Origin: a virus
Direction: 5' to 3' (one strand)
IMG/VR virus record: IMGVR_UViG_3300042549_000412
Location: 1 to 30,974 of that record
DNA: 30,974 nucleotides
In this document: piece after piece, positions 2,892-30,974 of the stretch
Position numbering within the stretch: the first letter of the stretch is position 1
Layout: every line of letters begins with the position of its first letter
Notes under the pieces: generated by a model
What the model was told of the DNA's origin: nothing
Database searches by the model: none
What the model saw: the letters and a program-made list of their open reading frames with translations, nothing else
Made by a program: the position numbers and the translations under genes

Positions 2892-3575
2892 ATGTTAGTA
2901 TATATAGCAATAAATAAAATAAACAGTAAAAAATACATTGGCTATACCACCAAAGCATTACACGAAAGAATAAAAACTCATGTAATAAAGGCTTATAGTA
3001 AATCATCAAAACATTATGATTATAATTTTCAAAGAGCTATAAGAAAGTATTCTATAGATAGTTTTACATGGGAAGTATTATATAATTGTTGCAGTAAAGA
3101 AGAATGTATTCAAAAAGAAATTGAATGTATTAAGCACTATAATTCCATATCTCCTAATGGTTATAATTTAACTCATGGTGGGGAAGGTGGTGTACAATCA
3201 GAAGAAACTAAATTAAAGATTTCAAATTCTGTTAAAGAATATATTAGGTTAAATCCAGATAAGTACAATAGGATACTTAATATGACATCAGAATCCAGAA
3301 AAAATGTAGCTAAAAAAGCATGGGATACAAAAAGAAAAAATGGATATAAATATCCATCAGGGTTTAAAATAAGTGATTTGTCAAAACAAAAAATGAGTAT
3401 AACTAAAAATAATAAAAATAAATGTGGTTGGATAAATATTAATACTAATGAAATATTATATAAATCCTTAACCGATATGTCAAAATATACAGGTTTAAGT
3501 TCAGGCGTATTCAATCACCTTAAACAAGGAAGACAGCAAAAAACTAAATGTGGATGGATGTTTTATGTAAAATAA
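2892..3575 (+). CDS. Free-standing GIY-YIG homing endonuclease
   Basis: This 227-residue protein begins with a GIY-YIG nuclease domain (residues 1-95). YIAINKINSKKYIGYTT supplies the paired Tyr motifs, ALHERIKTH the catalytic Arg region, and IECIKHYNS the conserved Glu and following tyrosines. NGYNLTHGGEGG marks the domain end. Next come short NUMOD3-like DNA-binding repeats (EETKLKISNSVKEY; LSKQKMSITKN), then a C-terminal helix-turn-helix module of the IENR1 type (residues about 180-227, SLTDMSKYTGLSSGVFNHL). Such enzymes nick or cut DNA at intron-free sites and spread by repair of the break. It stands between two intact genes and has AT-rich flanks. The upstream 47 bases and downstream 33 bases hold no intron-like structure that I can see. 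It is probably a selfish insertion in the lysis-to-tail region. Confidence 0.9.
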   Translation: MLVYIAINKINSKKYIGYTTKALHERIKTHVIKAYSKSSKHYDYNFQRAIRKYSIDSFTWEVLYNCCSKEECIQKEIECIKHYNSISPNGYNLTHGGEGGVQSEETKLKISNSVKEYIRLNPDKYNRILNMTSESRKNVAKKAWDTKRKNGYKYPSGFKISDLSKQKMSITKNNKNKCGWININTNEILYKSLTDMSKYTGLSSGVFNHLKQGRQQKTKCGWMFYVK

Positions 3576-5530: not shown

Positions 5531-7753
5531 ATGGAAAATAGTCTTTACAAACTTATTACAAACCATATACATAAATCAGCACTTACCACCAAGAATTCAA
5601 AAAAGTCGTGGACTTATGGTTATCATTCTGAGTACGATTTAGTTGTTATATCAAAGGATGGAACTATAGGTGATATATATGATATAAATGGAGTCAAGGT
5701 TGCATTACCAGCAACTCCAAAAAAAATAGAAATCACTAACAATAGATGGGTTGCAACTGATTATCCACAAGAGCTGCAAAAGATAAAAAGCATATTCGAT
5801 TGGAATAGAAGAGACAATTCATTTAAGTCTAAATATGTTGATTATATTGAGACTGAATTTGATAGACGTGACAATGGTTATTGGTTCATGAATAATGGAG
5901 TTCCTACTTATATCACTGGAACTCATTATATGTACTTGCAATGGACTAAGATTGATATTGGTCTACCAGACTTTAGAGAATCCAATAGAGTTTTTTATAT
6001 ATATTGGGAGGCATGTAAGGCTGACAATAGGTCGTTTGGGATGTGCTATCTAAAGAATAGACGTTCTGGGTTTTCATTTATGTCTTCAGGTGAGGTGTCT
6101 AATACTGGTACTATAGTTCGTGACTCCAGGATAGGTATATTATCTAAGACAGGTCCAGATGCAAAGAAGATGTTTACAGATAAGGTAGTGCCTATTGTTC
6201 GGAATTATCCTTTCTTTTTTAAACCAATACAAGATGGGATGGACAATCCTAAGACTGAGTTGGCGTTTCGTGTGCCTGCTAGTAAGATTACTAGAAAGAA
6301 CATGGATGAAGAAAAGAATGATGAGATTGACGGACTAGATACTACTATTGACTGGAAGAATACAGCTGATAACAGTTATGATGGTGAGAAGTTATTGTTG
6401 CTTGTTCAAGATGAAGCAGGGAAATGGACGAAGCCAGAGAATATTTTAAATAACTGGCGTGTAACTAAAACTTGTTTACGTTTAGGTAGTAGGATAGTAG
6501 GTAAGTGTATGATGGGTTCAACCTCAAATGCATTATCCAAAGGTGGTGACAATTTCAAGCACTTATACAACGATAGTAACCCTAGGAATCGTTCTGCTAA
6601 CGGTCAAACTAAAAGTGGATTATATTCTTTATTTATTCCTATGGAGTGGAATATAGAGGGTTATTTAGATGAGTTTGGTCATCCTGTTTTCGCAGATCCT
6701 AAAAAGCCTATTATTGGCATTGATAGGGAAAAAATAAATCAAGGTGTAATTACTTGGTGGAATAACGAGGTTGCTGCATTAAAGTCTGATTCTGATGCCT
6801 TGAATGAATTCTACCGTCAGTTTCCTAGAACTGAATCTCACGCATTTAGAGATGAATCGAAGCAATCTGTGTTCAACTTAACAAAGATATATCAGCAGAT
6901 TGACTATAATGATTCTTTAATAAAGGATCATGTATTAACTAGGGGTCATTTTCATTGGAAGAACGGCAAGAAAGATACTGAGGTTATTTGGACTCCAGAC
7001 GCAAAGGGTAGGTTTTTGGTTTCTTGGATTCCAGATAGTAAAATGAGAAATAATGTAATAGATAGAAATGGTAAGAAATTTCCTGGTAATGCTGAGTTGG
7101 GTGCTTTTGGTTGTGACCCTTATGATATTTCAGGTGTTGTTGGTGGCGGTGGTTCAAACGGTGCTTTGCATGGAAAGACTAAATTCCATTTATCAAAAGA
7201 TGCTCCAATTAATGAGTTCTTTCTTGAGTACATAGCAAGACCACAAACGGCAGAGATATTCTTTGAAGACGTTCTAATGGCTTGTATATTTTACGGTATG
7301 CCTATATTAGCAGAGAACAATAAGGCTAGATTACTTTATCACTTTAAGGATAGAGGATACAGAGCCTTTTCTTTAAATAGACCAGACAAAGACAAAAGTA
7401 AGCTATCTAAGACGGAGCTAGAGTTAGGTGGGATACCTAATACATCTGAAGATGTAAAACAAGCTCATGCCTCATCTATAGAGACTTACATTGAGGAATA
7501 CGTTGGTCTTGATACCGAGGGAACTTATAGGGATTCCGATATTATGGGGTCTATGTATTTTACTAAGACATTAGAGGACTGGGCTAAATTTGACCCTAAC
7601 AATAGAACAAAGCATGATGCTTCCATTAGTTCTGGATTAGCTATTATGGCTACTAGAAAGTATTCTTTTGAAACAGAGAAGAAAGAATCGAAAATAAGTA
7701 TTAAATTTGTAAGATACGATAATAGTGGAACAAGGAGCACAATAATAAAATAA
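5531..7753 (+). CDS. terL: Terminase large subunit
   Basis: The 740-residue protein is the ATP-driven packaging motor and headful nuclease. In the ATPase domain the Walker-A-like loop is NRRSGFS (residues 176-182, without the classical GK[ST]), as in crAss-like terminases. The Walker B strand is LLLLVQDEAGK with Asp294-Glu295. The RNase H-like nuclease domain shows FGCDPYDISG (Asp529), AENNKARLLYHF (Glu595) and TKHDASISSGLAIMAT (Asp696), the expected three acidic metal ligands. The length is normal for the family. An N-terminal region of about 150 residues with GTHYMYLQWTKI precedes the motor. The TAA overlaps the portal ATG by one base, so motor and portal are coupled. Confidence 0.95.
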   Translation: MENSLYKLITNHIHKSALTTKNSKKSWTYGYHSEYDLVVISKDGTIGDIYDINGVKVALPATPKKIEITNNRWVATDYPQELQKIKSIFDWNRRDNSFKSKYVDYIETEFDRRDNGYWFMNNGVPTYITGTHYMYLQWTKIDIGLPDFRESNRVFYIYWEACKADNRSFGMCYLKNRRSGFSFMSSGEVSNTGTIVRDSRIGILSKTGPDAKKMFTDKVVPIVRNYPFFFKPIQDGMDNPKTELAFRVPASKITRKNMDEEKNDEIDGLDTTIDWKNTADNSYDGEKLLLLVQDEAGKWTKPENILNNWRVTKTCLRLGSRIVGKCMMGSTSNALSKGGDNFKHLYNDSNPRNRSANGQTKSGLYSLFIPMEWNIEGYLDEFGHPVFADPKKPIIGIDREKINQGVITWWNNEVAALKSDSDALNEFYRQFPRTESHAFRDESKQSVFNLTKIYQQIDYNDSLIKDHVLTRGHFHWKNGKKDTEVIWTPDAKGRFLVSWIPDSKMRNNVIDRNGKKFPGNAELGAFGCDPYDISGVVGGGGSNGALHGKTKFHLSKDAPINEFFLEYIARPQTAEIFFEDVLMACIFYGMPILAENNKARLLYHFKDRGYRAFSLNRPDKDKSKLSKTELELGGIPNTSEDVKQAHASSIETYIEEYVGLDTEGTYRDSDIMGSMYFTKTLEDWAKFDPNNRTKHDASISSGLAIMATRKYSFETEKKESKISIKFVRYDNSGTRSTIIK

Positions 7754-10182
7754 TGGAGAAATTGTCAGTTGTAATTAATCAATCACCCTTCCCTAATCAG
7801 ATGGCTTCGGATGAAGAAAAAGCTACATTTGCTTATGGGCTAAAAGTAGGTAAATCTATTGAAGGTGAATGGTTTAAGAGAAAAGTAAATACATGTAGGT
7901 TTTATGACCAATGGGGTGAGTTTCATAGATTGAGACTATACGCTAGAGGTGAGCAGCCTGTTCAAAAATATAAAGACGAGTTATCTATTAACGGAGATAT
8001 GTCTATGTTAAATTTAGACTGGACTCCTATTCCTATTATCCCCAAGTTCGTTGACATTGTTGTTAACGGAATGAATGACAGGTTGTTCACAATCAAAGCT
8101 GAATCTCAAGATGTTATGTCGGCAGAGAAAAAGAATGTATTTCAAGATATGATTGAAGCTGATATGATAGCTAAAGATTTTTTGAAATTAACACAAGAGG
8201 AGTTTGGTATAAACGCTTTTGATGTTGACCCATCTGAACTACCAGAGAGTGACGAAGAGTTGTCATTATATATGCAACTTAAATATAAACCTAGCATTGA
8301 GATAGCCGAGGAAGTCGCTATTGATACAATGTTGAAAATGAACGACTATTCTAAGATAAAAAAAATGGTTGACTATGACCTTACTGTATTAGGCAAGGCA
8401 GCGTTGAGACATACATTTTTACCTAATGATGGTTTAAAGATTGATTATGTTGACCCATCTAATCTTATTCATAGCTATACTGAGAAGCCAGACTTTTCAG
8501 ATTGCTATTATTTTGGCGAAGTTAAGCAAGTACATTACACTGAATTATTAAAAATAAACCCTAATCTAACTAATGAGCAATTAGATGAGATTAGAGGAGC
8601 TTCTTCCGCATGGTATGATTATTTCCCTATTATTAGAAATTATCAAGATAGTGCATTTTTAAACGAAGTGGTTACATTGTTGTATTTTAACTATAAGACT
8701 GATAAACGTTTTGTTTGGAAGAAAAAGATACTTGAGAACGGTGGTGAGCGAGTAATCAGAAAAAACGATACATTTAATCCTCCTATTGAGGATGGTATGC
8801 AATTTGAGAAAGTAGAAGCTGTTCGTGATGTTTGGTATGAGGGTATTTTAGTTGGAGGTTCTAACATTATGATTAAATGGGAAATGATGAGAAACATGGT
8901 TCGTCCAAAATCAGCAAGTCAAAAGGCACTCCCTAATTACGTAGTTTTTGCTCCGAGAATGTATAAAGGTAATGCAGAGTCTTTAGTTAGACGTATGATT
9001 CCTTTTGCAGACCAGATACAATTAACTCATTTGAAGCTACAACAAGTAATGGCTAGAGTTGTACCTGATGGTGTATTTATTGATGCAGATGGTATCAATG
9101 AGGTTGATTTAGGTACTGGTGCTGCATACAATCCAGAGGATGCTTTAAAGTTGTACTTTCAAACTGGTAGTGTTATCGGTAGGAGTTATACTCAAGATGG
9201 TGAATTTAACAATGCTAGAATACCTATTCAAGAATTAAATTCTAATAGTGGACAATCCAAAATGGCTGCTTTAATAGGTAATTATAATCACTACTTAAAT
9301 ATGATACGTGATGTGACAGGTATAAATGAGATTAGAGATGGCTCTACTCCAAATCCTGACGCATTGGTTGGAGTTCAAAAGTTAGCCGCTTTAAGCTCAA
9401 ATACAGCTACTAGACATATATTAGAAGGTGGTTTATCTATGACTAAAAGTATAGCTGAATGTATATCTGTTAGGATTGCTGATATTCTTGAATACGCTGA
9501 TTTTGCAGAAGAGTTTGCTATGCAGATAGGAAAATACAACGTAGCTATACTTAATGATATTAGAGAGCTTTATTTGCATGACTTTGGTATATTCATAGAG
9601 GTTTCTCCTGACGAGGAACAACGACAAATGCTTGAGGCAAACATACAAGTTTCACTACAACAACAAACTATTGATTTGGAGGATGCTATTGATATTAGAA
9701 TGATTAATAATATCAAGGTTGCTAATGAGTTATTAAAGGTTAAAAGAAAGAAAAGAATAGAGCAAAAGCAGAAAGAACAAGAAATGCAGTTCCAAATGCA
9801 GATGCAAAGTAACATTCAATCTCAACAGGCGGCAGCTGAGAGTAAAGCTCAGATGGTTCAATTGGAGGCTCAAAGTAAGATACAAATTAGAGAGGCTGAA
9901 ATGAACTATGCGGTTCAGCAAATGCAAGCAGAGGCAGCTATAAAGGCTCAGTTAATGGACAGAGAGTTTCAGTATAATATGCAGTTGAAAGGTATAGAGA
10001 CTGACAATTTAATGAGAAGGGAAGATAAAAAAGAAGTTGCTAAAGATAAACGTGTTGACCTTCAAGCTACAAGACAATCTGAGTTAATAAACCAAAGAAA
10101 GAACAATCTACCTCCATTGAATTTTGAATCTACAGAGGATTCTTTGGATGGTTTTGACTTAGAATCTTTTGGACCAAAGTAG
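7753..10182 (+). CDS. Portal protein
   Basis: This 809-residue protein lies directly downstream of the terminase with a one-base overlap. It has the length and layout of crAss-like portals: an N-terminal wing region (WTPIPIIPKFVDIVVNGMND near residue 90), a clip/stem region, a conserved late-middle stretch (RDVTGINEIRDGSTPNPDAL near residue 520), and a C-terminal coiled coil from about 665 to 770 that is very rich in Gln, Glu and Met. The acidic tail ends in SFGPK. Portals form the dodecameric ring at one capsid vertex through which DNA enters and leaves. The long Gln-rich helix would lie in the barrel. Identification rests on order, length and family memory. Confidence 0.92.
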   Translation: MEKLSVVINQSPFPNQMASDEEKATFAYGLKVGKSIEGEWFKRKVNTCRFYDQWGEFHRLRLYARGEQPVQKYKDELSINGDMSMLNLDWTPIPIIPKFVDIVVNGMNDRLFTIKAESQDVMSAEKKNVFQDMIEADMIAKDFLKLTQEEFGINAFDVDPSELPESDEELSLYMQLKYKPSIEIAEEVAIDTMLKMNDYSKIKKMVDYDLTVLGKAALRHTFLPNDGLKIDYVDPSNLIHSYTEKPDFSDCYYFGEVKQVHYTELLKINPNLTNEQLDEIRGASSAWYDYFPIIRNYQDSAFLNEVVTLLYFNYKTDKRFVWKKKILENGGERVIRKNDTFNPPIEDGMQFEKVEAVRDVWYEGILVGGSNIMIKWEMMRNMVRPKSASQKALPNYVVFAPRMYKGNAESLVRRMIPFADQIQLTHLKLQQVMARVVPDGVFIDADGINEVDLGTGAAYNPEDALKLYFQTGSVIGRSYTQDGEFNNARIPIQELNSNSGQSKMAALIGNYNHYLNMIRDVTGINEIRDGSTPNPDALVGVQKLAALSSNTATRHILEGGLSMTKSIAECISVRIADILEYADFAEEFAMQIGKYNVAILNDIRELYLHDFGIFIEVSPDEEQRQMLEANIQVSLQQQTIDLEDAIDIRMINNIKVANELLKVKRKKRIEQKQKEQEMQFQMQMQSNIQSQQAAAESKAQMVQLEAQSKIQIREAEMNYAVQQMQAEAAIKAQLMDREFQYNMQLKGIETDNLMRREDKKEVAKDKRVDLQATRQSELINQRKNNLPPLNFESTEDSLDGFDLESFGPK

Positions 10183-10236
10183 GCTATAACTAGCATTATG
10201 CGTAAAAATTGTTGTAATAACGGTTATAACCAGCAT
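10182..10236 (+). repeat. 15-base direct repeat pair, 40-base spacing
   Basis: GGCTATAACTAGCAT (10182-10196) and GGTTATAACCAGCAT (10222-10236) agree at 13 of 15 positions; both differences are C/T. The second copy contains the perfect palindrome GGTTATAACC. The first copy also pairs with it as an imperfect inverted repeat. The centre-to-centre distance of 40 bases is close to four helical turns, as for a protein binding twice on one face. The first copy begins within the portal stop codon. Confidence 0.55.
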
Positions 10237-10237
10237 A

Positions 10238-10272
10238 TTTTGTCGCAAAAATAGTATATATTTGCGACAAAA
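10238..10272 (+). promoter_or_regulatory. Perfect 12-base inverted repeat over a promoter box (operator or hairpin)
   Basis: TTTTGTCGCAAA (10238-10249) is the exact reverse complement of TTTGCGACAAAA (10261-10272), with an 11-base spacer. No uridine run follows, so it is not a standard intrinsic terminator. The right arm includes the TTTG of the box TATATTTG at 10257-10264, so a protein bound here, or RNA folding here, would directly affect that promoter. Confidence 0.65.
10257..10264 (+). promoter_or_regulatory. -7 box TATATTTG inside the inverted repeat
   Basis: This box matches TAnnTTTG. A TTG at 10240-10242 lies upstream, but only 14 bases separate it from the box, shorter than the usual 19-21. 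It is followed by the hairpin at 10278-10332, which would therefore lie in the 5' part of the transcript. Confidence 0.45.
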
Positions 10273-10277
10273 CTATT

Positions 10278-10332
10278 TAGTATTTCGTAGCGCAATATAC
10301 CAAAAAATGGTAATAAACGCACTGAAATACTA
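10278..10332 (+). ncRNA. Symmetric hairpin in the putative leader
   Basis: TAGTATTTC (10278-10286) pairs with GAAATACTA (10324-10332). Inside it GCG pairs with CGC, and TACCA with TGGTA, around an AAAAA loop. The unpaired stretches are equal on both arms (three and three, then five and five bases). A long, evenly interrupted stem suggests a folded leader RNA or a processing site more than an operator. It is not a terminator, since no T-run follows. Confidence 0.4.
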
Positions 10333-10357
10333 GAATTAAATACGGCTTAATATATTA

Positions 10358-10365
10358 TACATTTG
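10358..10365 (+). promoter_or_regulatory. -7 box TACATTTG
   Basis: This is an exact match to TAnnTTTG in AT-rich DNA, about 100 bases before the scaffold gene. No TTG at the expected -33 position. It could be a second start site for the capsid unit. Confidence 0.35.
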
Positions 10366-10437
10366 AGCTGTATTTATATGTTTTTGCATATTATATTAGC
10401 TATAAATGGTATTTTATACGTAATAAAATATAATTAT

Positions 10438-10445
10438 TATCTTTG
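10438..10445 (+). promoter_or_regulatory. -7 box TATCTTTG before the scaffold gene
   Basis: TATCTTTG ends 20 bases before the ATG at 10466. Position and leader length resemble the boxes before 4250 and 14257 (the last is the same octamer), so this is the most probable proximal promoter of the scaffold-capsid unit. Confidence 0.55.
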
Positions 10446-10465
10446 TAAAAAATAAATTAAATATA

Positions 10466-11572
10466 ATGACAGAAGAGTTTAAAGTAAGAGCAGTTGATTT
10501 TGAGGAAAAATCAGTTGCTGAAATAGAGGAGAAGTTACTAAAAGAACACGCTGAGAAAACAGGGACTGCTGAAGTTGAGGCTGAACCTGAAAAGGTTGTT
10601 ATTGAAGATACTTCTCAAAAGGTTGAACCTCAAGAGATTGAGATAGACGACAATAGAGTTCTTTCATATATTGGAAAAAGATATAACAAAGAGATTAGTA
10701 ATCTTGACGAATTATTTCAAGAAAGGTCTAACAATGAAGAGTTAGACCCAGAGGTTGCTAGTTATTTAAAATATAAGAAAGACACTGGTCGAGGGATTGA
10801 GGATTTTATTAAGTTAAATAAAGACTTCAGTTCTATGGACCAAGACCAATTGTTATTTGAGTATCGAAAAAACATCGACAAAGACCTTGACGATAGTGAT
10901 ATTAAATTTGACTTGGATTCTGAGTTTTCAATAGACGATGTTTATGATGACGAGAAAACAGCAAAGAAAAAACAATTGGCAAAGAAAAAAGAACTTTCTA
11001 AAGCTAAGGAATATTTTAATCAACTAAAAGAACAGTATAAAGTTCCTCTTGAGTCAAGAGAATCTTTTGTTCCTACGGATGAGAAAGAAGCTTACGAGGC
11101 TTATAAAGGTTATAAAGAAAATGCTACTAAGGCGGATGATGAGCAACTCAAAAAGTCTAAGTACTTCACTGACAAAACGTCTGAGTTATTTTCAAGCAAT
11201 TTTGAAGGTTTCAATTTTAGCTTGGATGATAATAAAAAGATAGTGTATAAGCCAGCTGAAGCACCAGACTTACTGAAAGAGCAATCTAATTTACAGAATT
11301 TTGTATCAAAGTTCTTGAATGATGAAGGCTACTTGAAGGATGCAGAAGCATTTCACCGTTCTATTGCAGTGGCTTCAAACCCAGAGAAATTCGCTAAATT
11401 CTTCTATGAGAAGGGGATGGCAGAGGCAGTTGGTAATGTTGCTAGAGAGTCTAAAAATATTGACATGACTCGACAAGCACCACAATTAACTCCTACTTCT
11501 GGTTTTAAAGTTACAGCTATAGATGACGGACGTGGCAATAGGTTAGTAATTAAAAACAATAACAAAAATTAG
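10466..11572 (+). CDS. Scaffold-like head assembly protein
   Basis: This 368-residue protein is very rich in charged residues and nearly all predicted helix, with an acidic N-terminal half (EAEPEKVVIEDTSQKVEPQE) and a Lys/Glu coiled coil near residues 165-195 (EKTAKKKQLAKKKELSKAKE). The last 100 residues are more compact and include KFFYEKGMAEAVGN. No enzyme motif or membrane segment is present. A long charged helical protein immediately before the major capsid gene is the usual place and character of a scaffolding protein, the temporary core around which capsids assemble. No protease motif is visible in it. The capsid ATG follows five bases after its stop, consistent with one transcription unit from the control region upstream. 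Confidence 0.7.
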   Translation: MTEEFKVRAVDFEEKSVAEIEEKLLKEHAEKTGTAEVEAEPEKVVIEDTSQKVEPQEIEIDDNRVLSYIGKRYNKEISNLDELFQERSNNEELDPEVASYLKYKKDTGRGIEDFIKLNKDFSSMDQDQLLFEYRKNIDKDLDDSDIKFDLDSEFSIDDVYDDEKTAKKKQLAKKKELSKAKEYFNQLKEQYKVPLESRESFVPTDEKEAYEAYKGYKENATKADDEQLKKSKYFTDKTSELFSSNFEGFNFSLDDNKKIVYKPAEAPDLLKEQSNLQNFVSKFLNDEGYLKDAEAFHRSIAVASNPEKFAKFFYEKGMAEAVGNVARESKNIDMTRQAPQLTPTSGFKVTAIDDGRGNRLVIKNNNKN

Positions 11573-11577
11573 AAAAA

Positions 11578-13005
11578 ATGGCTGGAACATTAAACGTAAC
11601 CCCTGGAGTTAGTATTACTCCGAGTGCTGTAAAGGCAACTTTGCCTTCAAACTACATCACTAATTTTGATTTCTTGAATCAGTATCTTCCTGATACTTAC
11701 GAGCAAGAATTTGAACGATATGGAAATCGCTCTATCGCATCATTCCTTAGAATGGTAGGAGCTGAGCTTCCTTCTACATCAGACTTGATTAAATGGGCTG
11801 AGCAAGGTCGTTTGCATACTAAATATGCCAATGTTACTACTGCTATTACTGCTGGTAATGATACAGCTATTTGGACAGTAAATGACACAGACTCTAATGG
11901 TAATTATTTGAATTGTAACTTTAGAGTAGGTCAAACAGTTTTCTTGTCTTCAAAATCTTCAAGTGCTTCTGATAAGGCTATTATCACAGACGTTACTGCA
12001 TCCGCAACAAGTGTAACTGCAGCAACATTTACTGTTGCTTATTATGCCGCTGGTGGTCAAACTATTGCTGCTAGTACTGCATCAAATGCATTTGTTTATG
12101 GCTCTGAGTTTAAGAAAGGCTCAAGTGGTATGGTTGGTTCTTTAGAGGCGCAAGACGATTTCTTTGAAGTATCACCTATTATTATTAAAGACAAATACAC
12201 TGTATCTGGTTCTGACATGGCTCAAATCGGATGGGTTGAAGTGACTACTGAAAACGGTGCTACAGGTTACTTGTGGTATATGAAATCAGAGCACGAAACA
12301 CGTTTGCGTTTTGAAGACTATATGGAAATGGCTATGGTTGAGGGAGTTCCTGCTGAAGCGAACTCTGGAGCTATTGCTGCAACTGGTGATGTAGGTAATA
12401 AAGGAACTAAAGGTTTATTTCACGAAATTGAAGACAGAGGTAATGTATGGTCTGGAGGTAATCCAGCTACATTAGCTGACTTTGATACAATCGTACAAAG
12501 ATTGGATAAACAAGGTGCTATCGCTGAGAATGCATTGTTCTTGAATCGTCAGTTCTCTTTTGATATTGATGATATGTTAGCTACACAAAACTCTTACGGA
12601 GTTGGTGGTACGTCTTACGGTTTGTTTGACAACAGTGAGCAAATGGCTCTTAATTTAGGATTCACAGGATTCCGTAGAGGTTATGAGTTCTACAAAACTG
12701 ACTGGAAATACTTGAATGACGCTACATTGCGTGGTGGTCTAGTAGGTGGTGCTGTAAACGGAGTGTTAGTTCCAGCTGGAACAACTACTGTTTATGACCA
12801 AGTATTAGGTAAAAACGCAAAACGTCCATTCTTACACGTACGTTACCGAGCTTCTGAAACAGAGAACAGACGTTACAAAACTTGGATGACTGGTTCAGCT
12901 GGTGGAGCACAAACAAGCGATTTGGATGCAATGGAGGTTAACTTCTTGTCTGAAAGAGCTTTGTGTACATTAGGAGCAAACAACTTCTTTATCTTCAAAG
13001 GATAA
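11578..13005 (+). CDS. Major capsid protein (HK97 fold, crAss-like)
   Basis: The 475-residue protein is recognised by the N-terminal block FDFLNQYLPDTYEQEFERYG followed by RSIASFLRMVGAELPSTSDL, characteristic of crAss-like capsid proteins. Residues about 85-185 are rich in Thr, Ser, Ala and Val and look like an inserted beta domain. The later part contains the long helix region (RLRFEDYMEMAMVEG) and a C-terminal beta region ending in ALCTLGANNFFIFKG. Codon choice is slightly richer in C-ending and G-containing codons than in neighbours, as often seen for the most abundant protein. It forms the icosahedral shell. A strong terminator lies 12 bases downstream. Confidence 0.93.
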   Translation: MAGTLNVTPGVSITPSAVKATLPSNYITNFDFLNQYLPDTYEQEFERYGNRSIASFLRMVGAELPSTSDLIKWAEQGRLHTKYANVTTAITAGNDTAIWTVNDTDSNGNYLNCNFRVGQTVFLSSKSSSASDKAIITDVTASATSVTAATFTVAYYAAGGQTIAASTASNAFVYGSEFKKGSSGMVGSLEAQDDFFEVSPIIIKDKYTVSGSDMAQIGWVEVTTENGATGYLWYMKSEHETRLRFEDYMEMAMVEGVPAEANSGAIAATGDVGNKGTKGLFHEIEDRGNVWSGGNPATLADFDTIVQRLDKQGAIAENALFLNRQFSFDIDDMLATQNSYGVGGTSYGLFDNSEQMALNLGFTGFRRGYEFYKTDWKYLNDATLRGGLVGGAVNGVLVPAGTTTVYDQVLGKNAKRPFLHVRYRASETENRRYKTWMTGSAGGAQTSDLDAMEVNFLSERALCTLGANNFFIFKG

Positions 13006-13016
13006 GAATAAATATT

Positions 13017-13052
13017 AACAGAGTGTCATCAGTGACACTCTGTTATTTTTTT
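13017..13052 (+). terminator. Intrinsic terminator after the capsid gene
   Basis: AACAGAGTGTCA and TGACACTCTGTT form a perfect 12-base-pair stem with a TCAG loop, followed by ATTTTTTT. It lies directly after the major capsid gene and is the strongest terminator in the window. Confidence 0.93.
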
Positions 13053-23313: not shown

Positions 23314-26300
23314 ATGAACGATAAACTACAACAACTTTACGATTTATACAAATCAAAGGGAATTATTAACACAGTTGATTTTAACACATTCTCTACATCT
23401 GATGATAGTCAGAGACAAAAATTATATGATTTAGGTAGGAAAAATGGATTATTTAAAACGACTGATTACGGAGTTTTTAGTTCGGTATTTACACCTGTAA
23501 AAAAAAAAGAGGTTTCACAATCAACACAAAGAGAAGAAGATATTTCATCGGCTACATCAAAGATGGCTCAAAATCAGCATTTGGTATCTTCTGCTCCAAA
23601 AGATGAAAATGTATATACAGGATTTCCTGGGAAAGAGAGCAAAAAATATAAGCTAGACCAATCTACTGGAGTAGAAGTTTGGAAAGAATATAGCTCTACT
23701 AATTACAATCAGAAAACAGGTAAACAAGAAGATGTATTTGATAAAACAATTACAGACCCATCAAGAGTGAATGCGCTTAATAAGCAATTCAACGCTAAAG
23801 CATCTACTAATGAAGTAGAAAAAGTTTTTGTTGGTTATCCTGGTAAAGAAAAAAATGAGTATAGAGTAAAGGATAATTTATGGCAAAGAAAAGAGAAAGG
23901 TCAAAGTGATTGGACAACAATTACTAATGAAGGTTCTATAAAAGCATTAAATTATGAATTTGGTAAAACTATAAATGTGCTTGCTCCTGAAGAGGCATTA
24001 AGAATATCTAAAAATGAATCATCTTTATCAAAAATAAATAATACAATAAATAAAGACTTAATTGGTCAAGACGAAGAAGATGCTATATCTAAAATAAATA
24101 AAGCAATAAAAAGTTATGATTACCTTGAGGCTGAGCAAATTGGTGCTGGTTATGATGCTATAAGAGTAAAAAATAAAGTGACTGGGGAATACAAAGACAT
24201 TAGCCTTGATAACTGGTCTTCAGATAGAGATAAGGAAGAGTCAGAAATACTCAAAGGATTCTTGTCTGTAAATATCGGCAACAGTGAATACACTGAAAAA
24301 TACAAGAAAATACAAGACTTAGAAAACAAAATAAAAACTGCTCAACCTTACAAAGTTCCTCTTATTCAGAAAGAAATAAATGAAGCCAGAGAAGAACTTA
24401 AAGACATAGATAGAAAAAGAAAGAACGATTCAAGAGAGAATAAATATAAAGCAACAGCTGTATTTGATAAGTATGCTGTTGATGACATTAATCTAAATAT
24501 ATCTAAGACTATTGTAAAAACAGAGGACCTGAAAAAGAAAGCGGCTGAGTTTTCTGAATATGCGAATACAGTAAATGAAGCCTATAGAAATGGTAAGATA
24601 ACTGAAGAGGATTATAAAAATAACTATGCTGTAGTTATCGAGAATAATAAAAAAGAAATTTCATCAGAAATAAATGCTATCAAGCAAGACTACAATGATG
24701 TAAAGAAAGACTCTATTTTAGTTGACGATATAGCTGGATATAATTACAAGGTAGAGTCTCAAAGAGGTAACGTTTTAACTGGTACTACATCTGCATTTCT
24801 AAGAGGATTTGAAGGCGCTACTAGATTTGCTCTTGAAGGTATATCTGAAGAAGCAGGCGGATTAAAAGAAGGTTCGTTTCAAGGCGTAATGTCTGAGCAA
24901 TTAGCACCATCAACTGTAAGTTCTATATACACATCTTCAGAAGGTAAGAACACATTTGAACAGATTGTATTTGGTCTTGCTGAGTCTGGCGGTGCGGCTA
25001 TGGCTGGAGTATTAACAGGTGGTCCTCAAGGGGGTGTATTTGGCTTATATGCATCTAGTTATGTTCAGTTGAAAGACCAAATGAATACACCTGAGTTTCA
25101 GGATGTTCCAGAGTATCAGAAGGTTTTATTGTCAGGTGTATATGGTGCTTCTGTGGCGTTGCTAGAAAAGTACGGTATAACAAAAGGCTTTAGTAAAAAT
25201 CCAGTTGGTAAGAGGTTCTTAAATTCTTTCTTATCTAAAATGGTGAAAGAGCTTCCTTCTGATGCAACAGCTGAAGTTATTGAGGCTTATGTAAATAAAA
25301 ATGTCAAAACTCTTATTGCTAAAAAAGCAATAAATTTAACAGGTGCTGGTCTTATTGAGTATTCAACTGAGGCTGGACAAGAGGCTACTGATATTGGATT
25401 AAAGTCTTTATTTAACGGATTACAAGGTAAAAAGTATTTTGAAACTCCTGAGACATGGGGTGAGGTATTTTCTCAAATCAATGAGGCTGGTAAATTAGGG
25501 TTTATAGGTGGTGCTGGAATGCAGTCAACAAGTATAGCTTTGAACACAACTAAAGACGCTCTAACTAAATACCAATTAAATAACATAGAGAACACTATCA
25601 ATAATGAGGACATTAAAAATATATATGTACTAAACATTAAAGATAGAATATTATCTGGAGAGATTACTAAAGCTCAAGGACAAAAGGAACTCAACAAATT
25701 AAAAGAGTCTGAGGGTTTATTGAATAAAATACCAGTAAACATAACTGGTGATAGTAGATATGAGGCATTTCAATTAATAAATGAAAGAGACGAGCTTCAG
25801 AAAGCAACAGAAGGTAAAGAGGCAGCTTTAATTACTCCTATTACAGATAGAATTACAGAGATTAATAACAGATTAAAAACAATAAGTAAAAATGCCGTTC
25901 AAGTCGAAACAACAGGTGAAGTTCCTGTACAGCCAGAAGCCAGAGTTGGCGAAGAAGTGGTCCAAGGAGAATCCAAAACAGAACCTCAAAGCATTACCGA
26001 AGAAGGTCAAAAAGAAGTAGAGACATTAAGAGCTAAAGAGATTGCTGAATTTAAGGAAGAGATAGATAATGCAGATGACTTCATTACAGATGGCAAGATA
26101 GATGCAAAAAAAATAGAGGCTTCTGATAATTTAAAAGCCAAAGAGATTTACGCTAAGTACGACAAACTAATTAGTCCTTTATTGAAGCCTACCGAAATAA
26201 CAATAGATAAACCAGTCATTGCATCAAATGCTGCTGTTGAAGTAGATAGAGTAAAAGCTCTTCCTATTGAGTCAGAAGACGGAGCTACATTTAATCTTGA

Positions 26301-29300
26301 CGGAGCTAAATACGAAGGGGTTGGATTGGTTGTTCCAGTTGATAGCATGAATACAACAATAGAAGAATTAACCCCAGAGATGGTAGCTGATTTTGTTGAA
26401 GAACGTCAGAAGATGATTGGCGATACTGGGGTTGTAAAGGCTGGTATATATAAATTCCCTAATAGCAATCAAGTGTCAATAGACTTGAGTATAGTAGTTC
26501 CTGAATCATCAAGAGAACAAGCTATTGAATTCGGAAGACTTTCCGATCAAGAGTCTTTATTTGATTTAGCTACATTTGAAAATGTAAAAACTGGTGGTAC
26601 TGGAAATAACCCAATGAAATTTACTCCAGAGCAGCATAGGGAAATAGCGAAAGCATTAAAAGAGGGTAGAGTTCCAAATGTATTTTCAGAACAAGATAAA
26701 CGGACAGAATCCGATCAAGATAACTTAATTACGCAAGATAACTTTGAAGCACAGAGAGCTAAACAAACCACAACTGTAGGACAAAAAATAGTTACAGCTG
26801 CTAAGTTAGTTATGAAGGCATTACCTAGTGTTAAGATATATGTTCATCAAACAACGGCTGACTTTGAGATTGGTATTGGAGAGAAATCTGAAGAAAACGA
26901 TAGAGGTGCTTACATTAATGGAGAAATTCATATCAACCTAGAGAATGGTGCTAATTTGGCGACACTATATCACGAAGCAATCCACCACGCATTAGAAGTT
27001 AAAGGAATGCAGTCAGGTGCGATACTTGATCTTGCCAAAGGATTAAGAGCTATTGTATCTGGTAAATACACTAAACAATACTTAGATAACTTCATTAGTA
27101 ATTATGACGAGAATGCTCAAGCTGAAGAATATATAGCTGAGCTTGGAGCTATAATGGCTGAAGACAAGATGGAGCTGACTGCATCTAAGTTTATACAGTT
27201 TAAGGCGTTGCTTGGTAAGATAGCTAAAAAGCTTGGCATACCTGCATTTAGTGATGCAATGCAAGCTAAAGATGCTGCTGACTTTATTAATAACCTTACT
27301 AAAGCTATACGTACTGGTGAGGAGATTAAGACTGAAGGATTTCAATCAGAAATAATTAAGCCTAAAGAAATTAAAAAACAGGTAAAGGTTCGTGATAATT
27401 ATAAGTTATCATTTGTAAAACAATCTGATATTATTGATATTGATTCACTTATAAAAGAAATAGCTAATAAAGGTCAAAAGGTTTGGTTCTGGATGGCAGA
27501 TCAGTTAGGAATAGGTTATGTTTATGATGAAGTATCTGGAGAAAACAATTACTTAGATGCTGGACCTTCTTTTGCTTTAGATCCTGAGAATAGAAGCGAG
27601 CGAATAGTATGGGCTTCAGGGTTGAAAAAGAAAACTCTTAAACGTTTAATAGATAATTCTGACTATATATTCTTAGTAAGTGGATCTCCAGATACAGCTA
27701 AATTATTTAATAAAGCAGTGTTTGATTTATATGTTAAAAAAATAGGCGACTATAATTCATTTAAGAAAGAGGTGTTAAACAACACTCCAACTAAAGGAAT
27801 AAAAGAAGTTTTAGAAAAGTATAATTCATGGGAGGAAATAAAAGAAAGTGGTGACAGAAAAAAAATACTTTCTGAATTTAACAACTCATTTAATAAACCT
27901 AATGGTAAGCTAAATAAAATACTATCAAGCAAGAATGCACTTATTGATGTAAATTCAATTAAGGATGATTTTTACTCTGAAAATAACTTTCAGCAGAATG
28001 ATATTATGATGGTTTTAAAACCAGAAAAAATAGGAGGAAAGTCAAAGCATTCTACGTATGAAAATGATCTTATTGGAGATGTAGTAGGAGTTCCTGATAA
28101 GATAATAAATGCTTATGATATTTTATCAGATGAGGATAAATCAAGATATAAGGATGTATCTAATTCAGACAGAGTAAAACAGCAAGCTGTCACTGCGCCA
28201 TTCGGAAAAGGAATTAGAAGCGTTATTAAAAAACAAATGATATCACCTGAGAATTCATCCAACTATGCCAATTTAACTGAAGATGATAAAGGTAATTTTG
28301 TATTTTTCCATATAGGTGAAAAAAATTATGATGTAATAAAAACAAGTTCTGGAGCTAGCCTAAAAACAAGTTTAACAGAAGGATCTGCCATAGGAAGAGT
28401 TGGCGGTGTTGCAATGTATTACACTAGACCATCTGATGGTGAAAGAATGGTTACTAGTCCATCAAGATATATTGTAAAAATACCAAAAAATGAAGTTTAT
28501 GATTTCAATTCAGATCCATTAAAATTAATAGATGAAGCAGAAAAAAGATTTAATGAGGAATTTTCTGGATTAGCATTTACACCTAATGACCAATTAGCTT
28601 ATATAACTAAAATAGCAGATGAGAATGGTTATGGTATGACAGTTGCACAATGGGGAGATAGAACAAGGGCGCAGACAGTTCAAGAATACAAACCTGATGA
28701 TGTTGAAATTTCAGAAGGTAGTAGAATTGTAAAACCATTTGATGAAAAACATATAAGCAATACTGAAAAAGGATTTGTATCTGTTATACCTGAATCAAAA
28801 AGTAAAAAAATCAATGATTTATATGATAAGATTTATAAAATAAGAAATTCTGAAGGAAAATATGATGATCTATATAGAATTCAAGAAGAGTCAAGCAAAA
28901 TGACTCAAGATCAGATAACTGATATGATAATGAATTCAGATTTACCTAAAAGTGTTAAAGATGAATATCAAGAAATATTATCTTATAAACCTGAGAAAAG
29001 AAGATCTATTAAAAAGCAGAAAGCTCCATCAGTTGGTAAAGTATTAGGTAAGCCAAAAGCAAAACAGGTTTCAGTTAATGAGATGTCAGCATTGAAGGAC
29101 CAAATTAGATTGGAAGCTCGTGCTGCTCGTGATGCAAAAGGAGATTTGAATACTAAACGTAAAATGCTGGCTGCTGCCATTAGTAATATGGTTAAGCTTG
29201 GTAAAATAAAAGCATCTCAAGCTGGTGTATTAATCAAGAGGATTAGTAGTATAAACTTAGACAATCCTGTAATTGTAGATAGATTTGCTAACTATGCTGA

Positions 29301-30974
29301 GAAAGTATTTAACAGAGCTGACTATCAGAAAAGATTGGATGATGCATTTGCATTAAGAAAAAGTATCCGAAAATTATTGAATACTGAAAACCAAGCTGAG
29401 GTTGTTGGTATGGCTAAAGAATTTGCCAATATTGACCCATCATTAGTTGAAGACATTGATGCCTATATTGAGATGGCTGAGAAAGTTAAAAATGCCGTTA
29501 AACCGTCAAGAATAAAAGGCTTTGACGTAATAATGAAGGAAGCGGCAAATATCGCTATGGTATCTGAATTCTCAAAAGCCGAACTAGAAAGACAAGAGGA
29601 TATAAAAAAGCAAGAATTACTGGCTATACATGACTATTTAAAAGATATATCAAAAGACATGTCTTTAAAAGAGATTCAAGATATAATCAATCTGCTAAAA
29701 GAAAACTCAGAAGAAACTGCCGATAAAGAAGGTAAAGTAATGGAGTTCTTGAAAAATAGATTCGACTTTATGTCTGGTATAATCGACACAATGATTAATA
29801 CAGGTGTTGACCCTATGACTGGTGAGGATATTCAATTTGATGAAAAGCAAAATAGCTTAATGAAAAAAGTTCTAAAGATTGACTTGAATCAGATGTCAAT
29901 TAGAGAAGCTATTAAGATTGTTGAGAGTGTAAATAACTTTCTGACTAACCAAATAACTAGTGGTCTTGAAGCAGCTGTAAACTCTTACGAAGGTGCTACA
30001 AACGCACAAAGCTTAGTAGATAATGGTACTAAAGCAAAAGATGTATCACTATTCTTTTCTAAAAAAGCAGGTCAAGCATATACCAATCAATTGTTCTCAT
30101 TACCATTGTTAATGGAGAGAATGTTCAATGGAACGAAAGCTGCATTGAATATAATGACTGAAATGGGATTAAACACCGTCATTAATGGAGTGAATTTAGC
30201 GAACAAGCTACACGATAATATCATAACATCATACTCAAAAGAAGCGTTCTATGGTAAGAAAGGATTCATGGACCAGAAGAATGTTTTTGAGAGAGGAATG
30301 TTAGCTTTCTTAAAAAGAAACCTTACTGGTAGCGAAACAATGGTAAAAGCAGAATTCGAGAGAAGAGCTAGAATCATTGAGCAAAGTATTGAATCATTAA
30401 AAAATTCTGGAGACAAAAAGCTAGTTGAGTTAGGTGAAGCATACCAAGAGGTATATGACAAATTAGGAGTTGCTAAAAAAGACCTTGATGTAATTAATTC
30501 AAGAGCTGAATCAATGAATAAAGAAGCTGTCGATTGGTGGATTAAAGAATGGTCGAAGCACTACAAAGATTTATCAGATGTAAGTTTATCAGTATATAAC
30601 GCTATGTTAGGTAGTGATACAAACTATACACCTGATAAATTTAAAAAAATAGTACAGACAAGTGGAGTGATTGAAGACGCTGACAGTATCGGTGGGATTG
30701 ACTATACAGACAAGAACAAGACAGGAGTATTGATAGAGTCATCCAGACCAAATAATGCGCCTTCAGGCAGATATATTAGTCTTGATTTTGATAGTAATAA
30801 TTCAAACGCATTGAAGGGTGCATTGGTTGACATTAACACAGCAGCTGGAATTAGACAAGTAGATGGGTTTATGAGTTCAAAAGCATTTAACTCATTAGTT
30901 CCTAATGCTAAAGATAGAGCATACTTAGTTGAGCGCATTAATAACTATATAAGACGTGCTAAAGGAAAGAGGAT
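23314..30974 (+). CDS. Giant multidomain virion protein with zincin domain (partial, open at the window edge)
   Basis: An uninterrupted frame of at least 2553 codons starts at ATG 23314, nine bases after the previous stop, and runs past the edge. Parts in order: two 20-residue repeats at 8-27 and 37-56 (LYDLYKSKGIINTVDFNTFS and LYDLGRKNGLFKTTDYGVFS); a diverged pair at 100-159 and 171-216 sharing GFPGKE/GYPGKE; charged helices; a Gly/Ala-rich hydrophobic stretch at 548-589; a region at 990-1122 with FNLDGAKYEGVGLVVPVDSM and GGTGN that resembles a domain of polyvalent proteins; a zincin at about 1165-1280 with YHEAIHH (His1220, Glu1221, His1224) and EEYIAELGA as source of the third ligand; a 250-residue domain from 1390 (KVWFWMADQLGIGY, GPSFALDPENR); a possible ADP-ribosyltransferase-like region at 1660-1800 (FFHIG, YYTRPSDGE, IPKNEVYDFNSDPL); and long helices from 1919 on. 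Size and order fit a head-packed, ejected protein that may open the cell wall or act on host proteins. No RNA polymerase active-site motif was found in this part. Confidence 0.75.
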   Translation, partial: MNDKLQQLYDLYKSKGIINTVDFNTFSTSDDSQRQKLYDLGRKNGLFKTTDYGVFSSVFTPVKKKEVSQSTQREEDISSATSKMAQNQHLVSSAPKDENVYTGFPGKESKKYKLDQSTGVEVWKEYSSTNYNQKTGKQEDVFDKTITDPSRVNALNKQFNAKASTNEVEKVFVGYPGKEKNEYRVKDNLWQRKEKGQSDWTTITNEGSIKALNYEFGKTINVLAPEEALRISKNESSLSKINNTINKDLIGQDEEDAISKINKAIKSYDYLEAEQIGAGYDAIRVKNKVTGEYKDISLDNWSSDRDKEESEILKGFLSVNIGNSEYTEKYKKIQDLENKIKTAQPYKVPLIQKEINEAREELKDIDRKRKNDSRENKYKATAVFDKYAVDDINLNISKTIVKTEDLKKKAAEFSEYANTVNEAYRNGKITEEDYKNNYAVVIENNKKEISSEINAIKQDYNDVKKDSILVDDIAGYNYKVESQRGNVLTGTTSAFLRGFEGATRFALEGISEEAGGLKEGSFQGVMSEQLAPSTVSSIYTSSEGKNTFEQIVFGLAESGGAAMAGVLTGGPQGGVFGLYASSYVQLKDQMNTPEFQDVPEYQKVLLSGVYGASVALLEKYGITKGFSKNPVGKRFLNSFLSKMVKELPSDATAEVIEAYVNKNVKTLIAKKAINLTGAGLIEYSTEAGQEATDIGLKSLFNGLQGKKYFETPETWGEVFSQINEAGKLGFIGGAGMQSTSIALNTTKDALTKYQLNNIENTINNEDIKNIYVLNIKDRILSGEITKAQGQKELNKLKESEGLLNKIPVNITGDSRYEAFQLINERDELQKATEGKEAALITPITDRITEINNRLKTISKNAVQVETTGEVPVQPEARVGEEVVQGESKTEPQSITEEGQKEVETLRAKEIAEFKEEIDNADDFITDGKIDAKKIEASDNLKAKEIYAKYDKLISPLLKPTEITIDKPVIASNAAVEVDRVKALPIESEDGATFNLDGAKYEGVGLVVPVDSMNTTIEELTPEMVADFVEERQKMIGDTGVVKAGIYKFPNSNQVSIDLSIVVPESSREQAIEFGRLSDQESLFDLATFENVKTGGTGNNPMKFTPEQHREIAKALKEGRVPNVFSEQDKRTESDQDNLITQDNFEAQRAKQTTTVGQKIVTAAKLVMKALPSVKIYVHQTTADFEIGIGEKSEENDRGAYINGEIHINLENGANLATLYHEAIHHALEVKGMQSGAILDLAKGLRAIVSGKYTKQYLDNFISNYDENAQAEEYIAELGAIMAEDKMELTASKFIQFKALLGKIAKKLGIPAFSDAMQAKDAADFINNLTKAIRTGEEIKTEGFQSEIIKPKEIKKQVKVRDNYKLSFVKQSDIIDIDSLIKEIANKGQKVWFWMADQLGIGYVYDEVSGENNYLDAGPSFALDPENRSERIVWASGLKKKTLKRLIDNSDYIFLVSGSPDTAKLFNKAVFDLYVKKIGDYNSFKKEVLNNTPTKGIKEVLEKYNSWEEIKESGDRKKILSEFNNSFNKPNGKLNKILSSKNALIDVNSIKDDFYSENNFQQNDIMMVLKPEKIGGKSKHSTYENDLIGDVVGVPDKIINAYDILSDEDKSRYKDVSNSDRVKQQAVTAPFGKGIRSVIKKQMISPENSSNYANLTEDDKGNFVFFHIGEKNYDVIKTSSGASLKTSLTEGSAIGRVGGVAMYYTRPSDGERMVTSPSRYIVKIPKNEVYDFNSDPLKLIDEAEKRFNEEFSGLAFTPNDQLAYITKIADENGYGMTVAQWGDRTRAQTVQEYKPDDVEISEGSRIVKPFDEKHISNTEKGFVSVIPESKSKKINDLYDKIYKIRNSEGKYDDLYRIQEESSKMTQDQITDMIMNSDLPKSVKDEYQEILSYKPEKRRSIKKQKAPSVGKVLGKPKAKQVSVNEMSALKDQIRLEARAARDAKGDLNTKRKMLAAAISNMVKLGKIKASQAGVLIKRISSINLDNPVIVDRFANYAEKVFNRADYQKRLDDAFALRKSIRKLLNTENQAEVVGMAKEFANIDPSLVEDIDAYIEMAEKVKNAVKPSRIKGFDVIMKEAANIAMVSEFSKAELERQEDIKKQELLAIHDYLKDISKDMSLKEIQDIINLLKENSEETADKEGKVMEFLKNRFDFMSGIIDTMINTGVDPMTGEDIQFDEKQNSLMKKVLKIDLNQMSIREAIKIVESVNNFLTNQITSGLEAAVNSYEGATNAQSLVDNGTKAKDVSLFFSKKAGQAYTNQLFSLPLLMERMFNGTKAALNIMTEMGLNTVINGVNLANKLHDNIITSYSKEAFYGKKGFMDQKNVFERGMLAFLKRNLTGSETMVKAEFERRARIIEQSIESLKNSGDKKLVELGEAYQEVYDKLGVAKKDLDVINSRAESMNKEAVDWWIKEWSKHYKDLSDVSLSVYNAMLGSDTNYTPDKFKKIVQTSGVIEDADSIGGIDYTDKNKTGVLIESSRPNNAPSGRYISLDFDSNNSNALKGALVDINTAAGIRQVDGFMSSKAFNSLVPNAKDRAYLVERINNYIRRAKGKR

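Follow-up and report, generated by a model that had tools for sequence, protein, structure and literature searches.

A phage inverted repeat as the probable operator of a host AbiE antitoxin-repressor (DUF6088), carried without the gene

A perfect inverted repeat on a promoter box, with no gene start close behind it, raises the question of what reads it and why a phage should carry it. The window, i.e. the whole stretch of DNA analysed here, is a 30,974-base IMG/VR virus record with the gene content of a tailed phage, whose kin are the Flavobacterium elemo phages, Maribacter phage Panino and Cellulophaga phages. Sequence comparison indicates that the repeat is probably the operator of DUF6088, an AbiEi-type antitoxin-repressor of the host AbiE type IV toxin-antitoxin system, carried here without the gene.

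The repeat and its surroundings

The features of the repeat and its neighbours were as follows (window positions; where no strand is given, none was assigned):

7753–10182, plus strand: portal protein, upstream neighbour (PHROG 6547, E=2e-151)
10183–10465: intergenic stretch of 283 nt, with the dyad and several other stem-loops
10238–10272: whole perfect inverted repeat with 12-bp arms and an 11-bp spacer
10238–10249: left arm, TTTTGTCGCAAA
10241–10249: putative left operator half-site TGTCGCAAA, like a DUF6088/AbiEi operator half-site, with the variable dinucleotide CG at 10244–10245
10246–10253, minus strand: -7 box TATTTTTG, predicted start near 10241, antisense to the end of the portal gene
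10250–10260: core AATAGTATATA, 11 bp, asymmetric and AT-rich
10257–10264, plus strand: -7 box TATATTTG (TAnnTTTG), predicted transcription start near 10269
10261–10269: putative right operator half-site TTTGCGACA
10261–10272: right arm, TTTGCGACAAAA
10438–10445, plus strand: separate -7 box TATCTTTG of gene 10466–11572, with a like box at the same place in relatives with a 31–33 nt intergenic stretch
10466–11572, plus strand: conserved protein of unknown function, between the portal and a virion structural protein (PHROG 16786, E=1.9e-7)

The first-pass annotation had described perfect 12-base arms around an 11-base spacer at 10238–10272, the right arm sharing TTTG with a -7 box. The sequence check found the arms and spacer exact, and TATATTTG overlaps the right arm in TTTG. 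The consensus and position used for -7 boxes were taken from the available text of PMC6847099. The TAnnTTTG box formed by core and right half-site is present on both strands of the dyad; the minus-strand TATTTTTG (10253–10246), which the annotation did not mention, is equal in quality to the plus-strand box. When the window core was scored as a gene-oriented core, the minus strand reached 9.05 versus 2.46 for the plus strand. Inspection of the sequence upstream of the window -7 box found no -33 TTTG at the usual spacing. The next gene start, that of gene 10466, lies 193 nt past the dyad, and the plus strand has none within 190 nt. At DUF6088 operators the antitoxin gene begins about 16–20 nt downstream, and the window dyad has no such gene there; rather than an abiE promoter, it is an orphan site.

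Inverted repeats are not rare in the window, where a repeat search returned eight pairs of at least 11 nt within 100 nt, and the arm motif has no occurrence above chance elsewhere in it. The dyad stands above chance because the TGTCGCAAA/TTTGCGACA unit recurs in other genomes, not because of any rarity of inverted repeats. Other observations in the window were a homing endonuclease gene upstream of the packaging genes (2892–3575; PHROG 314, E=1e-30), a 19-nt near-perfect inverted repeat with a 4-nt loop (13010–13051) 3' of structural gene 11578–13005, and a single open frame of 2553 codons (23314–30972) that leaves the record at its right end.

Relatives were sampled as 80 loci retrieved via gene 10466. 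The annotation had made its reading depend on conservation in relatives, which held for L002 and L003 and failed at this place for the rest of the 80; since only these two share the dyad here, the feature is young and belongs to one lineage. The intergenic stretch of L002 is identical to that of the window, and L003 has 94 percent protein identity. Intergenic lengths in relatives, measured with a simple script, ran from 31 to about 1100 nt. In the other relatives the stretch either amounts to 31–33 nt, hardly longer than a promoter, or spans several hundred nt that include other small genes and stem-loops. Varied inserts occupy the place of 10183–10465 in L004–L081, including one gene of 210–213 aa that starts MAYIEHNFFPLK and one of 71 aa.

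Between the window and L003, half-site bases were kept in 18/18 positions, hairpin 1 in 38/55 and the core in 5/11. The L003 core matched that of the window at 10/11 bases when inverted (5/11 direct), and the promoter orientation that scores higher runs antisense in the window but sense in L003; for hairpin 1 the match was 38/56 direct and 39/63 inverted. The loop between conserved arms appears flipped between two close relatives (L003:3777–3805 versus window 10241–10269). L003 differs from the window among the three outermost positions of the 12-base arm, and the conserved unit is therefore 9-11-9. The earlier suggestion of a late-gene switch was not supported by this comparison: gene 10466 has its own -7 box, kept in relatives that have no dyad, and the nearest relative to diverge has the core in inverted orientation.

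Recurrence in viral contigs and at DUF6088 promoters

The inner 29 bp of the repeat, TGTCGCAAA-N11-TTTGCGACA (10241–10269), is a recurrent DNA site. It matches exactly the DUF6088/AbiEi operator pattern TGTNNCAAA-N11-TTTGNNACA with symmetric NN, where NN is CG, and TGTAACAAA is a variant form contrasted with this CG class. Four arm variants (CG, CA, CC and AA) were scanned at any spacer. The pattern TGTCGCAAA-N{1,30}-TTTGCGACA was found in 117 viral stretches, and the spacer was exactly 11 in 75 of 116 CG sites (loci L082–L197), with 37 distinct cores. A reversed-arm control returned 36 stretches with a flat spacer distribution (3/36 at 11). Spacer 11 likewise formed a peak in the other arm forms, with 76/118 viral sites of the CA form and 65/124 of the AA form (both among the matches listed), and 16/77 of the CC form. 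Arms were symmetric in 149 of 150 distinct viral sites, which is mostly selection because the scans demanded symmetric arms, and this count was not used as evidence.

A spacer-12 class occurred in phages (CA 26/118, L352–L469; AA 23/124, L547–L666; among the matches listed), and none of it in bacterial DUF6088 loci. A separate dyad, TGTCCCAAA-N22-TTTGGGACA, was seen 22 times in 77 sites (L470–L546) with 12 distinct cores. Among the cultured phages searched, only Tenacibaculum phage pT24 had most of the site, in its TGTCACAAA class. Each phage carries one or two sites, and the idea of a phage regulon was dropped on that count. All six two-site phages have two specificities, but they represent four lineages at most and the count was not considered significant.

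In bacterial genomes the site was found in at least 119 stretches, mostly of Bacteroidota, of which 80 were used as loci. It precedes genes of about 200 codons, and the one scanned was DUF6088 (PF19570). PADLOC called the DUF6088 protein AbiEi (E=2.2e-70), and the NCBIfam AbiEi equivalog matched it only below the cut-off. DUF6088 was present within 600 nt of 53 of the 82 pattern-found bacterial sites, with a profile built from these proteins and among the matches listed; the 29 others, some outside Bacteroidota or in coding DNA, had none within that distance. Bacteroidota copies of this latter kind include L225, L249, L268, L279 and others, and orphan copies may exist in hosts too. A Pfam scan of one gene following DUF6088 identified an AbiEii nucleotidyltransferase (PF08843, E=3.8e-38); in 76/94 cases DUF6088 was directly followed by an ORF on the same strand with a length of 120 aa or more, mostly 320–348 aa.

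For a sample independent of the site, strong DUF6088 genes were picked by Pfam alone, from genomes of the family, phylum and order to which one Flavobacterium genome belongs. An upstream dyad scoring at least 20/23 (consensus plus palindromy) was present at 39 of these 45 genes, two of which come from the central Flavobacterium genome, itself reached through the site. By a second count, 31/45 had at least 8/9 complementary arm bases and at least 13/14 consensus bases. Six loci fell under the threshold (L706, L707, L720, L722, L724, which is near a contig end, and L738). No match at 20/23 was obtained in 286,849 shuffled bases, and at up to four mismatches from the CG form no dyad was present at eleven loci whose Pfam matches were weak.

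The arm forms at DUF6088 genes are CG, CA, CC and AA. Position 17 is T and position 18 is A in 87/88 bacterial sites each, as in a -7 box formed from the core and the right half-site. Across Bacteroidota the dyad covers the -7 box of DUF6088 promoters, and the end of the element coincides with the predicted transcript start. The part of the annotation that read the repeat as an operator on a promoter box is supported by this position and by the covariation described below. A recombinase or dif-like site, suggested by the asymmetric core, was dropped, as the bacterial copies are DUF6088 promoters.

Operator dinucleotide and recognition helix

Covariation was calculated on 88 protein-site pairs; 47 of the 94 gathered proteins came from loci selected by a CG site. 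The operator dinucleotide covaried most with residues 40, 33, 36, 53 and 37 (top five columns). Residue 40 is mostly E with CG, H with AA, L or F with CC, and Q, V, S or D with CA. It differed in 910/921 pairs with different dinucleotides versus 134/714 with the same one, the pairs being 55–90 percent identical in the C-terminal part and not independent of each other. On a tree of the C-terminal part, the dinucleotide label changed 12 times.

In an AlphaFold2 model of DUF6088 (pLDDT 92.6), residues 33–40 fall within helix 32–44, the second helix of the helix-turn-helix of a winged helix-turn-helix (wHTH) domain and the predicted recognition helix, and residue 53 lies at the wing. Foldseek with this model gave the AbiEi antitoxin 6y8q as best match (E=1.9e-4), followed by Rv2827c (1zel). 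Nothing significant was found when solved structures were searched by DUF6088 sequence, and none of the predicted viral structures searched matched at E≤0.001. Because the dinucleotide covaries with recognition-helix residues 33, 36, 37 and 40, DUF6088 very probably reads the dyad.

Phage copies and their possible function

DUF6088 was encoded by two of 431 site-bearing viral loci (L403 and L493; four arm forms at any spacer, among the matches listed) and by none of 50 whole records. Its DNA-binding domain was found at E<0.001 in 0/43 phage records and not in the window, the bacterial control being positive; the single weak match, in phage record G976, had E 0.03. Scanning viral contigs with a DUF6088 pattern returned 14 loci. 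The absence of DUF6088 covers the 31-kb fragment, which carries a single site, and the gene may lie elsewhere in the genome of the window phage. Computationally, the site groups with the operators of DUF6088 promoters, its dinucleotide tracks the recognition helix, and phages carry the site as an orphan.

Distinct spacer-11 phage sites lay outside ORFs in 160/195 cases (35/195 inside), versus 229/969 shifted positions. The reversed-arm control sites were likewise outside ORFs in 30/36, and the intergenic contrast alone is therefore no proof of function. In 42 of the 195, a gene starts 8–26 nt behind a dyad bearing TAnnTTTG, and in L493 that gene is DUF6088. Genes behind phage sites encode GroEL, UvsX/RecA-like proteins, HNH endonuclease, primase-like proteins, 2OG-Fe(II) oxygenase, pyrophosphohydrolase-like proteins and peptidase M15; NrdB (L105) starts 39 nt behind its site. 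Among genes assigned to one type by eye, on their first residues, the preceding form differs from phage to phage (HNH by CG, CC and AA; RecA by CG and CA; primase by CA and AA).

Relatives of the window phage yielded 15 GroEL promoters, and the -7 box was in register in 14 of them. Five of 12 distinct promoters had perfect outer arms, in five different sequences, and most others had no dyad; the outer-arm test gave a cross-match rate of 1.5 percent (permutation p 0.034 on the mean). Arms TGTCG, TGTCA, TATCA, TACCA and ATTGC interchange over one -7 box 5' of GroEL in L753–L767, with none in some relatives. TATCA, TACCA and ATTGC were never seen at DUF6088 genes, and other repressors may therefore be involved.

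What the window copy does can be read in several ways. It could be a promoter-operator for a phage transcript from 10269 (or antisense from 10241), switched by host AbiEi and not acting as a decoy. The layout shared by those 42 sites with DUF6088 promoters and the -7 boxes on both strands speak for it, but the plus strand offers no nearby gene start, gene 10466 owns a box that relatives keep, the better orientation is antisense here and sense in L003, and the -33 TTTG is missing; this is a tentative, less likely reading. Between use as a decoy and use as a promoter the balance is about even. A site that binds is likelier than a fixed promoter, because no gene start is near, gene 10466 has its own box and the orientation is not kept. 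A different reader, phage-encoded or another host regulator that shares the DUF6088 operator sequence by coincidence, would fit the ordinary replication and chaperone genes behind phage sites, the GroEL arms unseen at DUF6088 genes and the spacer-12 class confined to phages. We consider it unlikely: one or two sites per phage make no regulon, 18 site-bearing bacterial genomes have the site only 1–3 times each (up to two mismatches), and the phage records lack the DUF6088 DNA-binding domain apart from the weak match.

An RNA hairpin, processing or termination signal between the portal and the next gene is highly improbable, although the intergenic DNA gives a better fold than its shuffled versions (z -5.1 on the plus and -5.5 on the minus strand) and relatives have other stem-loops at this place. 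The 11-nt spacer is fixed across many phages, no intrinsic terminator (GC-containing stem plus T run) was called in 9900–11000, no Rfam family was matched, and the bacterial element stops at the predicted transcript start. With variable bases that follow the protein and no terminator-like tail, the hairpin at the start of the transcript proposed by the first-pass annotation is unlikely. A relic of a former phage abiE module, or a strong host promoter captured by chance and now functionless, would agree with the youth of the site here and its unkept core orientation; it is improbable given that the half-sites are fully kept while hairpin 1 is not, that the window has no trace of DUF6088, and that phage sites lie outside ORFs more often than shifted positions do.

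Under the preferred reading, an operator of host AbiEi, two wHTH domains of that host protein would occupy the pair of 9-bp half-sites in the DNA of an infecting phage. A phage promoter that carries the site (GroEL, UvsX/RecA, primase, HNH) would be shut while antitoxin is plentiful and open once it is lost. As AbiEi of Streptococcus agalactiae represses its own operon by binding inverted repeats, its C-terminal domain sufficing for antitoxicity (available text of PMC3985639), multi-copy phage DNA could titrate such a repressor. For the window copy, replicating phage DNA would offer many copies and might pull AbiEi off its own promoter; the host operon would then be transcribed and the supply of labile antitoxin kept up during infection. 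Which way AbiE would be affected is a guess: titration might help the phage by renewing antitoxin or might serve sensing, and depletion of antitoxin by a decoy could be harmful to the phage. It is possible, at somewhat less than even confidence, that Bacteroidota phages widely carry gene-less AbiE antitoxin operators as a DNA-level counter-defence, wiring early genes to the repressor or titrating it and switching specificity as host antitoxin alleles change.

If DUF6088 binds these sites, a repressor of toxin-antitoxin defence acts in trans on many phage genomes, and AbiE is tied to phage gene control by a DNA code, residues 33, 36, 37 and 40 against one dinucleotide. Phage sequence would then predict the AbiE alleles of hosts, a way would open to ask how AbiE senses phage, and DUF6088, a family of unknown function in Pfam, would gain a DNA target and a function. 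AbiEi autoregulation is already known; among the listed articles of the open PMC literature, no description was found of AbiEi or DUF6088 operators in phages or of a DUF6088 operator code.

Phage promoters that carry the operator of a host repressor, such as LexA boxes, give control of phage genes to that repressor. The present case differs in that the repressor is the antitoxin of a toxin-antitoxin system, and related phages switch among its specificity classes. One close parallel is the abiE promoter of S. agalactiae (IR1/IR2), where, in the available text of PMC3985639, an antitoxin of the AbiEi fold represses itself through inverted repeats over the promoter and the outer bases TGTTGC resemble TGTCGC here. 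Those arms are 11 bp with N27, extending to two 23-bp repeats, whereas the DUF6088 site has 9-bp half-sites, N11 and a Bacteroidota -7 box, and its phage copy has no antitoxin gene. Rv2827c of Mycobacterium tuberculosis likewise autoregulates through repeats, and its structure (1zel) is related to the DUF6088 model, but its operator has two pairs of 23-bp repeats with 13-bp gaps and negative cooperativity (available text of PMC7319586). As in DarTG antitoxin mimicry and ToxIN escape (PMC11481870 and PMC5377504, in their available text), a phage here would imitate or evade part of a host toxin-antitoxin system; the DarTG mimic imitates the antitoxin molecule, whereas here only the DNA target of the antitoxin-repressor would be carried.
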